Of a stretch of 64,000 bases of DNA, positions 25,026-30,429 are shown piece by piece. The stretch comes from Candidatus Puniceispirillum marinum IMCC1322 (lineage in GTDB: Bacteria; Pseudomonadota; Alphaproteobacteria; Puniceispirillales; Puniceispirillaceae). The stretch is from the NCBI RefSeq assembly GCF_000024465.1, contig NC_014010.1, positions 434,001-498,000 on the forward strand. Reading direction: 5' to 3'. Below the pieces are notes generated by a model. That model saw only the letters and a program-made list of their open reading frames with translations, was not told where the DNA came from and did no database searches. Numbering within the stretch: the first letter of the stretch is position 1; each line of letters opens with the position of its first letter. The translations under genes and the position numbers were made by a program.

Positions 25026-27458
25026 CTAGGGTGTTGCCTTGCAATACTTATTATGAATTTCCATGTCGATGGTGACGCTGTTCGCCGATTGAATATTTGG
25101 ATCTGTTGCCATGCCACCCCATTCACGATAATGACCACATATTCTCTCAAGATCGGGTGTCGGCGTTTGACAATATGCTGCATTCGCAGGCGCTGAGCGC
25201 CACAACCCAGCCCCTCTTGAACTGCGATTAATGATCAAGTGCTTAGCAGGGCTTGTGGAATATGAAACGCTTCTCTTGGGTTGAAACTCGTTTACATTTT
25301 TCCCCGTTTGCCCAAGTGAAAAATTTGAAAATCGTATTTTCCGCGTATCGGTATTCTTTATCCACAAAGGTGCCAGGTCATTATCAAAAACGCTTAGCAT
25401 ATTATCCACTGGATTTCGGTACATAAGTAAATTGGTTGCCACCCCATTATCTGTGCTGTCATCGATAATCGGAATACCGCTACCATGCCCTGACCAAAAC
25501 CTTGTGCCATTATCGGGGCCATTGATCCAACGCCAGTTGCCTGGTTCGGTTTCACTGGCCCCAATCCAACCATGATAGGGTCTGCCCATAAACGTTTGAT
25601 CTATAAAATAGCTTTCTTCGGGGCTTGTTATTGTCATCAAATAGGGCTGAAGACCACACATCTTTGGTTCAATTTGATGCGCTCTGGCTAAAGCTGTATT
25701 AAAACTATAAGGTTGCCCATTGTGATATACAAAATCATAAAAATGGAATTTTCCATTAATTTCCATGGCGTGTTCACCCAAACTAAAAACAATTTTCTTT
25801 TCTATGCTGTAATTTGTTGCCAATGACTCAAGTCTTACAGACCGCATTGCCCGATTCCATATTTGTGTGGGCAGATTTTTATTGTCATTCGAGTAAAAGC
25901 GCAAAATACCATCTAACTGATTCCACGTTGCGTTCACCGATGGTGGTAAATTATTAATGCCAGAATATTGCGTAAACATTGCCATCGTTTGTTTCGATTG
26001 TGCAGGGACAGTTAAGACATCATGTTCTGGATCAAAACCTTCAACAATGGCCGCAAAGGCTTGATTAACACTGCACCCGGGCGCTATAAAAACATCACTA
26101 GGGGTAATTGAACATAACGCTTGTTCTGGCGCGATAATATTTTTGGAAAAGCTAGTGGTTACATTTTTTTGCGCCACGGTGACATTGGAACCAGAGGCTA
26201 GCCCTATGGCAAAATTTGCAGTAACGGTCTCCGGACTTGTTCCAACATTGTTAAAAAATCCGTCATTACCCGGAACAAAAACATCTTTACTTTTCGCCGC
26301 CCACCCATTCTGACCAGTTGGGTTTTGGGGGGTATCGCCTTCACCTTGCCAGAGTTCGTAAAAGCTATCTGCATCAAGATCAAAAAAACAGAATTTCTGT
26401 GAGTTAACGTTTTTCATATTACCAAATGAAATTAAGTCACCACTATCAAAATTCTGCAACATTCCATGATTGTTGCGGCCACTGAAATCAGATATCTGCG
26501 ACTGTTGTGTTGAACCTAAGTCAAACATCGCCCAGTTCAAAATCTGTGCTGACGTTTTTACGGTATTCACACCAGCCTCTTCATTAAGTAGTCTAGATAT
26601 ATCTTGTACCTCAAGTTCATCGTCCCAAATCCGTAAGTCTGATATACCACCTTTAAAAGAATGAGTTCCTTTTTTATCACGGGCGCCAACCAGCAACTTT
26701 GACGCTGTTGTTCTCATCCGGTCGATGAACGGAACGCCGTATGTGCCTTCACGTCTATTTCCATTTTGTCGAACACCATCAACATATTGTTTGAGAATAC
26801 TCCCATTGATTACCGTACTGGTTGTCGAATGTGGAAAGGTTATGACAACGTGGTGCCATGAATTATCTAAAAAATTAATGCCCCCATAGGTCCCGAAAAG
26901 AGAACCTTCCAATTCGACAAACAGCTCACCGTTCCGCAACAAAATTGCAAATTGACGACCGCTTGTTTCTCCCCATCTCAGAATAACATTTTCTTGTACT
27001 TGTCCATTTTCAGCTTTAACCCAGAACGAAATACTTCTGGCCATGGCATCGGTAATATTGACTGTCTGCAGACTTTCAATGGTTCGTCCGGCACCATTGA
27101 ATTTTATTCCGACACGTTGAGACGAGACTTCATTATTTAGTTGCAGGCAAGCCGAGTCATTTAATTTAACATCACTTATACCAATGCTTTTGGCATTTCT
27201 TAGATTTACCCTTAGCAGTTTTTGCGCCAAATCCTTTTGGCCTTCATATTCTCCAAGTTGATTTACCTCAACATGATGTTTCTGTAGTGTTAAGAAAATT
27301 GACGATATGCCTATCGACGCCACGGCGAAAACTGTGATGTAAACCAACAATTCGACAAGTGAAAAACCAGATTTACTAGCATTACAGCGTCTCAAATTGG
27401 TTTTTTGACACACCAGATAATCAATTAATGAAACCAGCAAAATTGTCTCCAGATACAA
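25026..27458 (-). CDS. Giant prepilin-like protein with LamG and C-type lectin domains
   Basis: Predicted minor pseudopilin of up to 810 residues. A type III prepilin cleavage site is clear: G31/F32 in SKSGFSLVELLVY, with the conserved Glu at +5 and a hydrophobic helix to about residue 57. A LamG-like jelly roll follows (about 115-300; SISFWVKAENG, SWHHVVITF, ISDLRIWDDELEVQDISRL). A beta-rich middle module covers about 445-560, and a C-type lectin domain about 565-690 (HGWIGASETEPGNWRWING). No ATG lies upstream of the cleavage site: TTG at 27458 (AAAGG upstream) or TTG at 27440 (GGAG upstream) must start it. It probably caps or decorates a pilus; the assembly machinery is not in the window. 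Confidence 0.75.
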   Translation of the reverse strand: MYLETILLVSLIDYLVCQKTNLRRCNASKSGFSLVELLVYITVFAVASIGISSIFLTLQKHHVEVNQLGEYEGQKDLAQKLLRVNLRNAKSIGISDVKLNDSACLQLNNEVSSQRVGIKFNGAGRTIESLQTVNITDAMARSISFWVKAENGQVQENVILRWGETSGRQFAILLRNGELFVELEGSLFGTYGGINFLDNSWHHVVITFPHSTTSTVINGSILKQYVDGVRQNGNRREGTYGVPFIDRMRTTASKLLVGARDKKGTHSFKGGISDLRIWDDELEVQDISRLLNEEAGVNTVKTSAQILNWAMFDLGSTQQSQISDFSGRNNHGMLQNFDSGDLISFGNMKNVNSQKFCFFDLDADSFYELWQGEGDTPQNPTGQNGWAAKSKDVFVPGNDGFFNNVGTSPETVTANFAIGLASGSNVTVAQKNVTTSFSKNIIAPEQALCSITPSDVFIAPGCSVNQAFAAIVEGFDPEHDVLTVPAQSKQTMAMFTQYSGINNLPPSVNATWNQLDGILRFYSNDNKNLPTQIWNRAMRSVRLESLATNYSIEKKIVFSLGEHAMEINGKFHFYDFVYHNGQPYSFNTALARAHQIEPKMCGLQPYLMTITSPEESYFIDQTFMGRPYHGWIGASETEPGNWRWINGPDNGTRFWSGHGSGIPIIDDSTDNGVATNLLMYRNPVDNMLSVFDNDLAPLWIKNTDTRKIRFSNFSLGQTGKNVNEFQPKRSVSYSTSPAKHLIINRSSRGAGLWRSAPANAAYCQTPTPDLERICGHYREWGGMATDPNIQSANSVTIDMEIHNKYCKATP

Positions 27459-27683
27459 TATTAACCTTTCGTAAATTACTATCTGTTAACTTTTAAAATT
27501 TAGAAAAAACAAATATACGACAGATAAACAACATTAAAAATATTGTTCATATTACTGATTTTAAATAATTAAATATTAAATGTGAAATTGTGACGCATTA
27601 AATAAATCAGATAAATTGCAGCTATCTTTTTGCGTGACTATTATCGGCCGCATGGCCAAGGCGACCTGAATGGAACAGTAACT

Positions 27684-28280
27684 ATGATAAGATCTGTAAA
27701 AATTGATCAGCACAATATGTCAGCTCACCCCGAACATCATCATGGTCAAATCATGAGAGAGCCGCAAGCTGGTTTTGCAATTATATCCGTTCTTGTCATT
27801 GTCACGCTTCTTGGCGCCATTGCTGTTCCCTTACTAAACACAGTGCATAAAAGCCGGGAAAGCGCAGTCTCACTTCGCGTCACGTCTCATCTTGGGCATG
27901 AGGCGCGAGAGAATTTCGAACTTGGGTTTCATATGACAAAACTTGATGGTGGCATTCCCAGCTTTTTCAAAACGGGCATATCACCATCGGTTATCCCCAT
28001 TGGTACAGCTTGTTTCAAACGCATTAATGCAGTCGATAATGAATATCTTGGTGGCTTTGACATTTTTGACCCAAATATTCACCATTCACCAATGACAGTA
28101 TCAAACAACCGATCTGTAGTTACATTTGCATATGATAATGGGCGCAAAACGGGTGCGGTATTTGAGGAGCTTGTTATTGTATCCTGCGCCATGTCAGAAA
28201 CGGGTGAAATTGGTGTCTATGCGGGTAAATTGGGTGTTATTGATGGCTCCTTCTATCCGATAAATTACGGACAATTTTAG
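27684..28280 (+). CDS. PilX/GspK-like minor prepilin
   Basis: Small prepilin-like protein (198 aa from this start). The segment QAGFAIISVLVIVTLLGAIAVPLL is a prepilin cleavage site and helix, but the usual Glu at +5 is replaced by serine, as in GspK/PilX-type minor pilins that sit at the fibre tip. The remaining 150 residues are not recognised. In-frame ATGs exist at 27684, 27717 and 27753; 27753 would give a typical 7-residue leader, 27684 has the better GGA upstream. It is divergent from the lectin-bearing pilin and converges with the PilW-like gene, stops 4 bases apart. Confidence 0.6.
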   Translation: MIRSVKIDQHNMSAHPEHHHGQIMREPQAGFAIISVLVIVTLLGAIAVPLLNTVHKSRESAVSLRVTSHLGHEARENFELGFHMTKLDGGIPSFFKTGISPSVIPIGTACFKRINAVDNEYLGGFDIFDPNIHHSPMTVSNNRSVVTFAYDNGRKTGAVFEELVIVSCAMSETGEIGVYAGKLGVIDGSFYPINYGQF

Positions 28281-28284
28281 AGCA

Positions 28285-30210
28285 TCATGGCGTTGGACAT
28301 CTTTGGGACTCGCTAATACGCAACTGAATGTCCGGTTTGTCGCGTATAGTAAATTGCCGATAGCTAACGCCAATACCTGAATCATTGACGGCGCGAATAT
28401 TCCATTTTGTGATGTTGTCAGTTAAAAGCATTTCGAGTCGAGGGTTAACATCGCCATCGCCATCTGGATCCTGATTATAGAATTCCAATTCATATGTGCC
28501 ATTACGTTTACCATTACTGGGAAGTCGAAGGGGAAGCACAACGCCATCATGTGATTTATCCCACCCCGGGGTTATCCTAAGCTTTCCAGATGAGTGAATC
28601 GTGGATGGTCTATATTCATGGGGATCATCAGCAAATGTAAATTTATCGGCAAAAGATGTTAAATCGCGGTTAGGTTCTATATTGTTTAGATTAAAATATG
28701 CTTTGCCGCCAGTTTTATCATTATCATCAAAAACAAAAAACAAGCTGAAGCGGTCAACCGTATTGAGATTATGTTGTTCATGTAAGAAAACGGTGACGCT
28801 ATCTGGAACTTCATCGCGGTTTTTTGGTGAATAGTTGATATATTTACCAGGTAAATTTGCATCGGCAGCATGTGGCCTCGTACATGGAAAAGGATCACCT
28901 TGTTCTTTTATGTATTGATAATAGCTTGGCACGCCGTCTGTGCGATCAAACCTAACATACTGTTTGGGTTGATTTTTTAAGGGACCGCAATATCCATAAT
29001 AATCTTGCGGATAGAGATTACTCCATACGGATACAGTCGTCACAAATTCACGTACTTCAAATGTTTTCGAAGAAGCATTATAGCGGCCAAGGTCAAAACG
29101 CGTGGCCGTGCCATTTGCAACACCACCGCAATTTGCCGTTACCTTTATGGTGGAAGATGCTGTGCGGCTGATTATTCCTGCTCGGGCATTGAGGGTTAAA
29201 ATATCATCACCAAAAAACCCGTTATCCGATTGGTATTGAAGATTTGAAAGAAGGCTTGCTACTTGTGTTGGTGAGCCCTGAAACATCACATTTGAACTAT
29301 TATCACCCGTAATCGTCATTCCGGACGGAATTGACGAAAAACGAAGCCGGTTTGTTGGGTGCGACGTGTTAATTTCCAGACTGAGCTGCGCTGCTGTATC
29401 CAGCGCATAAACGCCAATATCTTTAAGCGCCGTTAAAACGCTACTTATGCTGGTGAATATTGCAGGCATTTCTATGGTCAGGCCCGGGGCGCTTTTGTCA
29501 ATTGGCTCGATCATGGATGTATAAAAACTGCCAGGGTTATCTCGGCTATAAGCAACATAGCGGGGAAAGATAATTTGTTGCCCTGCTTTGACAGGTAATG
29601 ACTGGTTTGCGGCTTGCGTTAAACAGGTAGCGTCCTCAACGAATACTCTTAAAGACGGATTGCTTGATGATGCGTTCTGAATTGGCAATGATACAGTACA
29701 TCGGCCACCGCCGCCTTCCAGTGCAAATGCGATCTTGCCGCCACGCGACAGAATTGCATTTATATTTTCAGCGATGTTATGACCAGCCGCATCCTTGCAA
29801 TTTTTTTCAATACTGAAAGTGCTGAAACGAATAATGGCGTCGGAACTGAGTTTGCACTTTGGCACAGTGCCGTTATAGCGACTTCCATTGCCAAAAACAG
29901 TGCCCACAACAAGCGGGGGGGCGTCTTGAAGGTCCTGCGGCATTGTGCTGTTTATATACACAGGTGATTGCAATGTATCGCTCAGCTGGTCACGCCTGAA
30001 ATCATCATAAATAAAAGCCGCTATGGCTTCGTTCTTTTGTTGTGTCGTTAGTTCGTTTCGTCCTTGAAGTAAACTTATCTTATTCTGCGAAACAAATTGA
30101 ATGGCGGCAACACTGACCACGGCAAACAATGAAAGTGCGACAAGAAGCTCAATCGTTGAAAAACCTGAATGTGGTTTTTTAAACCTAACATCTATGTTTG
30201 TCGAACGCAT
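28285..30210 (-). CDS. Large PilW/GspJ-like prepilin with beta-sandwich modules
   Basis: Predicted minor pseudopilin of 641 residues. The cleavage site is G16/F17 in HSGFSTIELLVALSLFAVVS with Glu at +5. After a helical and GspJ-like portion, residues 240-360 resemble bacterial cadherin/Ig-like adhesion repeats (LSNLQYQSDNGFFGDDILTL). The last 250 residues are beta-rich with an Asp-rich stretch (DPDGDGDVN) that could bind calcium; I do not recognise that domain. Typical PilW/GspJ proteins are 200-350 aa, so two thirds is extra cargo. It lies between tRNA-Cys and the PilX-like gene. Confidence 0.7.
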   Translation of the reverse strand: MRSTNIDVRFKKPHSGFSTIELLVALSLFAVVSVAAIQFVSQNKISLLQGRNELTTQQKNEAIAAFIYDDFRRDQLSDTLQSPVYINSTMPQDLQDAPPLVVGTVFGNGSRYNGTVPKCKLSSDAIIRFSTFSIEKNCKDAAGHNIAENINAILSRGGKIAFALEGGGGRCTVSLPIQNASSSNPSLRVFVEDATCLTQAANQSLPVKAGQQIIFPRYVAYSRDNPGSFYTSMIEPIDKSAPGLTIEMPAIFTSISSVLTALKDIGVYALDTAAQLSLEINTSHPTNRLRFSSIPSGMTITGDNSSNVMFQGSPTQVASLLSNLQYQSDNGFFGDDILTLNARAGIISRTASSTIKVTANCGGVANGTATRFDLGRYNASSKTFEVREFVTTVSVWSNLYPQDYYGYCGPLKNQPKQYVRFDRTDGVPSYYQYIKEQGDPFPCTRPHAADANLPGKYINYSPKNRDEVPDSVTVFLHEQHNLNTVDRFSLFFVFDDNDKTGGKAYFNLNNIEPNRDLTSFADKFTFADDPHEYRPSTIHSSGKLRITPGWDKSHDGVVLPLRLPSNGKRNGTYELEFYNQDPDGDGDVNPRLEMLLTDNITKWNIRAVNDSGIGVSYRQFTIRDKPDIQLRISESQRCPTP

Positions 30211-30355: not shown

Positions 30356-30429
30356 GGCCCGGTGGCAGAGTGGTTATGCAGCGGTTTGCAAAACCGTGTA
30401 CATCGGTTCAATTCCGGTCCGGGCCTCCA
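30356..30429 (+). tRNA. tRNA-Cys (GCA)
   Basis: A 74-base cloverleaf. Acceptor arms GGCCCGG and CCGGGCC pair fully, the anticodon loop TTGCAAA gives GCA, the T loop contains GGTTCAATTCC, the discriminator is U and CCA is encoded. Confidence 0.96.

Follow-up and report, generated by a model that had tools for sequence, protein, structure and literature searches.

The window analysed here, a 64,000-nucleotide stretch of the Candidatus Puniceispirillum marinum IMCC1322 chromosome (contig NC_014010.1, positions 434,001 to 498,000 of the forward strand), carries three neighbouring pilin-like genes, here called A, B and C. Their products quite probably form the minor-pilin tip and initiation complex of the type IV pilus (T4P) of this SAR116-type alphaproteobacterium, with A as its adhesin. 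Comparison of sequences supports this through the prepilin N-termini, the domains, the conservation of the trio, the set of pilus machinery in the same genome and the tie of intact gene C to that machinery. An earlier, sequence-only reading had proposed gene A by itself as a pilus-displayed adhesin. A probably has that role; rather than standing alone, it is part of a conserved set of three pilins.

25026 to 27440, minus strand: gene A, modular minor pilin, about 804 residues from the likely TTG; the open frame extends to 27458
27630 to 28280, plus strand: gene B, short pilin-like protein, G/FAIIS (slash, cleavage site), without Glu5
28285 to 30210, minus strand: gene C, second large modular pilin, 641 residues, G/FSTIE with Glu5 and its own large cargo

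Architecture of the three pilins

The reading frame of gene A (25026 to 27458, minus strand) encodes 810 residues counted from its first TTG. Translation probably starts at the TTG at 27440, with GGAG six bases before it, which would leave a 25-residue leader. The N-terminal region reads SKSG/FSLVELLVYITVFAVAS, and prepilin peptidase cleavage is expected between 27366 and 27365. The class III prepilin start (GFSLVE) described earlier was confirmed by the Pfam N_methyl model at residues 28–51 (22.6 bits, cut-off 21.2) and by the conservation of the motif reported below; the NCBIfam prepilin model TIGR02532 remained below cut-off (12.9 versus 16.3 bits). The parts of A are as follows.

27306 to 27386, minus strand: class III signal peptide with the beginning of the hydrophobic helix, S-K-S-G/F-S-L-V-E; N_methyl at residues 28–51
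26559 to 27125, minus strand: LamG or pentraxin-type jelly roll, residues about 112–300; Laminin_G_3 and fold match
26139 to 26558, minus strand: middle region 1, beta-rich, residues 301–440; without an assigned family
25761 to 26126, minus strand: middle region 2, beta-rich module, residues 445–566
25035 to 25760, minus strand: C-type-lectin-like domain (CTLD) with a long insertion, residues 567–808; FQP and LWRS at the EPN and WND sites

The LamG jelly roll, likewise claimed before, was found by both sequence and fold. Pfam Laminin_G_3 matched residues 134–288 with 55.8 bits, twice its cut-off of 27.6, and a profile of the A family searched against the PDB matched pentraxins over this part (6ype, E 2e-5). 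Across seven A proteins, the window's included, Laminin_G_3 was present in all and N_methyl in six, the remaining protein ending at a contig edge before its N-terminal part. The AlphaFold model of A was weak overall, with a mean predicted local distance difference test score (pLDDT) of 59.6. Structure prediction nevertheless gave a fair LamG fold, with pLDDT mostly about 70–85 (dips to about 50) and pentraxin/LamG fold matches at Z 14–18, but left the CTLD half largely below 50.

The claimed C-type lectin domain stood in the family profile and fell short in the single-protein scan. C-type lectin domains were the best PDB matches of the A-family profile (6jjj, E 4e-7, profile positions 563–636), whereas Pfam Lectin_C (PF00059) scored 20.3 bits at residues 606–655 of the window protein, below its cut-off of 22.6. 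The relative of A in genome G044 clears that cut-off (23.7 bits), and Lectin_C was found at E ≤ 1 in four of the seven A proteins. No C-type lectin occurred among the 50 fold matches listed for the A model, a list filled by its LamG part (aligned length 157–203 residues in 49 of the 50). We take both the LamG and the CTLD of A to be real, the latter as judged from sequence alone.

Between them, the earlier reading had placed one beta-rich module. The stretch is beta-rich but falls into two regions (about 300–440 and 445–566), and neither matches a named Pfam family; the profile searches thus recovered LamG and CTLD but no family for the middle. Region 1 is present in all six A proteins scanned from SAR116, each of which had been used in building the profile, and gave no match at E 0.01 in the profile scan of G124, G125 and the G052 paralogue. 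A in G126 is cut before region 1 and is uninformative there. Region 2, perhaps a cadherin-like repeat, gave no match in a PDB sequence search, and a relationship to the beta-sandwich of gene C was unsupported by hhalign.

Gene B likely starts at the ATG at 27753, which would give a 7-residue leader. The GspK equivalog profile covered only its first 34 positions at 15.3 bits (cut-off 130), and a Pfam scan gave no match. By analogy, B resembles a filament-starting subunit without Glu5; because it meets no family cut-off, it is not classed as GspK. Gene C cleared TIGR02532 (17.0 bits, cut-off 16.3) and scored 23.2 bits against N_methyl in the genome search and 18.1 in the protein scan, the latter below the cut-off of 21.2. 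Its AlphaFold model (mean pLDDT 68) contains one well-predicted domain:

29134 to 29499, minus strand: beta-sandwich domain of gene C, preprotein residues 238–359, from the AlphaFold model

Here the 10-residue pLDDT means are mostly 84–92, with dips to 50 and 74. Fold matches were an N-terminal domain of human B4GALNT1 (Z 16) and, at Z 9, a CLIPPER domain of a bacterial fibrillar adhesin; on this model gene C may contribute a stalk or another head.

Conservation of the trio and its tie to pilus machinery

Relatives were compared in a family set of 61 genomes, including that of the window (a single contig of 2,753,527 bases, 100% complete), and in an order set of 136. Some match to A was obtained in 20 of the 61 family genomes, several being other CTLD proteins, and to C in 16. 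The architecture of A, sought in these relatives, was recovered over most or full length in G059, G010, G052, G056, G044 and G046, at 25–31% identity; the first 93 residues of the G010 protein are off its main contig, that part of the gene lying at the end of another. The trio occurs together in G059, G052, G056, G044 and G046, with gene order C-A-B in the last two, and is spread over two contigs in G010. G052 holds a second, diverged trio whose C was detected only by profile (E 3e-4) and N-terminus. At 1e-10 the A profile matched 26 of the 136 genomes of the order, three of them in family f4 (G124, G125 and G126), where the arrangement is C-B-A and C is shorter (368–393 residues). On sequence comparison the trio therefore recurs in SAR116-type genomes and also in this second family, where B is the less certain member. 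A scan of genome contigs with the single A protein gave nothing; with the alignment and one pattern it gave eight loci, seemingly in no additional genomes.

The N-termini are conserved in a consistent manner. All 11 A genes and all 12 C genes read across the start retain both G-1 and Glu5, while the 11 B genes all have G-1 and none has Glu5, carrying S, A, G or M at that place. These motifs were located by patterns, of which those for A and C contain E5, and every gene tried matched; the 12 C genes exclude the remains in G018, G019, G021, G023, G024 and G051 and the contig-cut C of G055.

The window genome encodes its pilus machinery in one block of about 13 kb at approximately 2,721,900–2,735,400 (chromosome coordinates). 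The block contains a T2SSF protein (PilC), an MshE-type T2SSE ATPase (PilB), a second T2SSE ATPase, a secretin, an A24 prepilin peptidase (PilD) with the bacterial N-terminal domain and a 196-residue major-type pilin. The PilB, PilC, PilD, secretin, major pilin and retraction ATPase families all scored over their Pfam cut-offs, and on our own reading of its size and place the second ATPase would be PilT. A 536-residue protein of the same locus (L100:13180-14787) matched PilN at 37.7 bits and PilM below cut-off, a possible PilM-PilN fusion. The trio lies at about 459,026–464,210, some 480 kb from the pilus locus if the chromosome is circular. N_methyl at E 0.001 marked only three places in the genome, namely A, C and the 196-residue pilin; the model fails to detect B, so other odd minor pilins could escape it. 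As the machinery locus holds no further N_methyl match, the trio is a natural candidate for the minor pilins of this T4P.

Intact gene C tracks the machinery across the family. PilD was found in 7 of 61 genomes, PilC (T2SSF) in 7 and either one in 9. Intact C is present in eight genomes, six of the nine with PilC or PilD versus two of the 52 without (Fisher p 4e-5), and among 28 good genomes (≥90% complete, ≤5% contaminated) in four of five with machinery versus one of 23 without (p 0.001); the Fisher test ignores kinship and the "intact" class was defined after the data had been seen, which tells against the proposed pilus-tip complex. The locus is damaged in seven of the 52 machinery-less genomes (G024, G018, G019, G021, G023, G051 and G054). 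C and A fragments run across three frames in G024, a stop lies within A in G054, and C is split or truncated in G021, G023 and G051.

By analogy with known systems, we propose that PilD, encoded about 480 kb away, would trim A, B and C, which would then assemble in the inner membrane into a small complex that initiates the pilus. B, the sole member without Glu5, would occupy the first and outermost position with A and C directly beneath. Major pilin would be added underneath, and the pilus would exit through the secretin with the trio ending at its tip. There A would display its LamG jelly roll and CTLD outward as an adhesive head for polysaccharide or glycoprotein, and C would display its further beta-sandwich.

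Several observations stand beside the trio. A tRNA-Cys gene flanks it in the window. On visual inspection a similar tRNA sequence also lies close to what is left of C in G021 and G023, suggesting that these genes decayed in situ.

30356 to 30429, plus strand: tRNA-Cys flanking the trio

The CTLD is, as read from sequence, modular, in that it can be missing from A or joined straight to a C-type pilin start. A in G124 has 569 residues with pilin and LamG parts; middle region 2 is only faintly recognisable there, and the CTLD gave no match at E 0.01. G018 and G019 (L035:8355-9380 and L036:8503-9528) carry a 341-residue open frame in which the start of C is fused to the CTLD of A, the two copies differing by two synonymous changes and nothing else. 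A second C::A fusion with another breakpoint was seen by eye in G009 (L038:5245-6120), where a C-like stretch precedes a CTLD with EPN and WND; it is cut at the contig end, and its C part is without BLAST or profile support. In G059 the A frame (L027:15488-18548) continues beyond the CTLD into a domain resembling C residues 230–430, up to the contig end, and another contig of this genome, C34 (L131), opens with a piece resembling the end of C.

CTLDs of this kind also occur outside the trio. G059 (L167:5034-6917) and G052 (L168:3398-5464) encode secreted-looking proteins with middle region 2 followed by a CTLD with intact EPN/WND, each adjoining a major-type pilin gene; in the G059 protein an EF-hand-like stretch falls just below the Pfam cut-off. 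Large secreted-looking proteins with the same kind of CTLD, some perhaps autotransporter-like, were found in G001, G004, G006, G016 and G056 (L040, L022, L046, L042 and L041). A different pilin quartet of 196, 700, 617 and 216 residues is present in G034 (L107). Its 196-residue member has a GspH-type match below cut-off, the 617-residue member a weak CTLD match, and the 216-residue member, which is without Glu5, a weak PilX C-terminal match; this suggests, from sequence, a CTLD grafted onto another minor-pilin set. Searches for other origins were negative: tblastn with gene C gave no match in 72,556 plasmid records, and the A profile none in viral contigs, in a scan with only one short pattern.

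Weighing the proposed pilus-tip complex against its alternatives

Further points weigh against a pilus-tip complex. G056, 99% complete in 20 contigs, has intact A, B and C with G-1 throughout and E5 in A and C, yet searches at E 0.001 matched neither PilC nor PilD nor a secretin. Its one ATPase match is below cut-off, in an 894-residue frame of a kind also seen in G000 and G019. Since the machinery of the window genome forms one block of about 13 kb, a single missing assembly stretch could account for this exception. In G046 (83% complete) C is likewise intact, and neither PilC nor PilD was matched. Conversely, machinery without intact C was found in G034, which has the other pilin cluster, in G043 (91% complete), which has no C or A match, and in G055, where C reaches a contig end. 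The damage series comprises only seven genomes, neither A nor C having any match in most machinery-less genomes, and part of the damage may be draft assembly error; in G051 the contig ends shortly past the frameshift in C, with the A end intact on another contig. The G018/G019 C::A fusion, being an open frame, might be in use. B reaches no Pfam or NCBIfam family cut-off, and in f4 it was identified from position and N-terminus, G126 being the one genome where BLAST linked it to the window B (E 0.003). Finally, the window CTLD is without EPN and WND, with FQP and LWRS in those positions.

The last point bears on the ligand. In canonical C-type lectins, EPN (or QPD) and WND bind calcium and sugar. 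The 14 CTLDs compared from SAR116, all of A or fusion type, split into five that keep both motifs (G044, G046, G059, G048 and G009) and nine that do not (the window, G010, G052, G056, G054, G019, G024, G051 and G058). The 14 comprise 11 from one alignment plus G009, G051 and G058, with G018 counted once together with G019; left out were G001, G006, G034 and the G052 paralogue (other proteins), the G016 row (wrong frame), G020 and G026 (which do not span both motifs) and G125 (f4). Because the distant A of G125 has QPN and WND, loss of the site in the window's branch would be the likelier direction of change. The window CTLD seems better termed lectin-like, and its ligand may be something other than sugar. 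Two carbohydrate-binding folds had been proposed for A; this is half supported, with the LamG fold in its favor and the missing EPN and WND residues of the CTLD against it. The LamG part of A shares its fold with the glycan-binding module of Streptococcus sanguinis PilC, a likeness of fold that is no proof of ligand. We infer, as was first suggested, that A may adhere to algal or particle polysaccharide.

It is unlikely that the trio is a pilus-independent surface or periplasmic lectin complex using the prepilin start as a membrane anchor. The intact G056 trio without machinery over cut-off would fit such an anchor, as would the open C::A fusion with GFSLVE in G018 and G019, which have no PilC or PilD. 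A mere anchor, however, would need neither the G-1 kept in all trio genes nor the E5 kept in all A and C genes read. Intact C also tracks the machinery, and the locus is broken or fused in seven of the nine machinery-less genomes in which it could be classed (G018, G019, G021, G023, G024, G046, G051, G054 and G056).

A related possibility, which we hold to be rather improbable, is that in part of the SAR116 clade the trio has been freed from the T4P as a self-standing lectin complex, on the surface or in the periplasm, matured by an unknown route. It is raised because G056 retains an intact trio with the processing motif while no peptidase, platform protein or secretin was detected. A hidden prepilin peptidase was sought in the machinery-less genomes at E up to 10 and rejected: three of eight genomes gave weak matches (G051 16.9, G010 11.6 and G056 10.2 bits), none over cut-off, and the G056 and G010 frames look ion-channel-like by eye.

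A pilus used chiefly for DNA uptake, with the trio as a competence tip whose cargo binds DNA or sugars incidentally, receives similarly little credence. The PilT-sized ATPase and single major-type pilin would suit a competence pilus, and the N-terminus of A is weakly ComGF-like (15 bits, cut-off 80). LamG and CTLD are, however, adhesion-type folds, and Pfam found no DNA-binding module in A or C.

A type II secretion system, with the trio as its GspI/J/K-like pseudopilus tip, is still less probable. Weak N-terminal matches of A to GspJ, C to GspI and B to GspK models point that way, but none attains its cut-off. The pilus locus, moreover, has a PilT-sized second ATPase, an MshE-type ATPase and a PilN/PilM-like protein, and large lectin-type cargo would better suit an emerging pilus. 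That the A frame joins separate genes through an assembly error can be practically dismissed, as the six other genomes bear out A as one continuous gene, and five of those contigs also exist as records of separate bins or isolates.

Known systems and biological meaning

The sequence-only reading knew of no common family with the architecture of A. This calls for correction, since modular pilins are a described class of more than 1,200 proteins in 264 architectures, with PF13385 among the frequent modules, a feature A shares (PMC8179133); pilins with grafted modules, LamG included, are already known from it. The available text of that source names ConA/LamG-, PA14-, vWA-type and various lectin modules, with C-type lectin unnamed, and a LamG plus CTLD pilin may already be listed in its Dataset S1. 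The nearest solved example is the ConA/LamG-type modular minor pilin PilC of S. sanguinis, which has Ig-like and ConA-type lectin modules and binds glycans (PMC9934059). A resembles it in its class III start with Glu5 and LamG/ConA-fold lectin module, and the trio in that PilC has been proposed to share a tip complex with a second minor pilin. A differs in its CTLD, in two further beta-rich regions beyond LamG and in its diderm host, while B and C, unlike the PilC partners, gave no PilA- or PilB-type model match in Pfam and NCBIfam scans.

In most systems a single minor pilin is without Glu5, a proposed signature of the filament-starting subunit (PMC5207764). The trio shares this with the GspHIJK-type core minor pilins, which have one such member and a proposed initiating tip complex (PMC5207764). 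It differs from them in that only three genes were found here, with B on the opposite strand and A and C several-fold larger, and in having no full-length profile over cut-off. The head of CofB is lectin-like in nature. Like CofB and TcpB of type IVb pili, A is a large minor pilin with a beta-rich head and a proposed tip position; those two are single minor pilins, and no LamG or CTLD is mentioned for them in the text available from the sources (PMC5207764, PMC8179133).

Literature searches, with partial coverage through titles and the starts of abstracts, found no description of this protein or trio. What appears new is the order of LamG, two beta-rich regions and CTLD, together with a conserved trio that has one member without Glu5, lies away from the pilus locus and is damaged where the pilus is absent. 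A B-type gene without Glu5 beside two cargo pilins could serve as a marker for minor-pilin sets outside the pilus operon. SAR116 bacteria are abundant in surface oceans. If our reading is true, a lectin-tipped pilus would let them cling to algae or particles, and its patchy distribution within SAR116 would mark the lineages able to attach. Otherwise-alike heads differing at EPN/WND would make ligand switching at the pilus tip testable.

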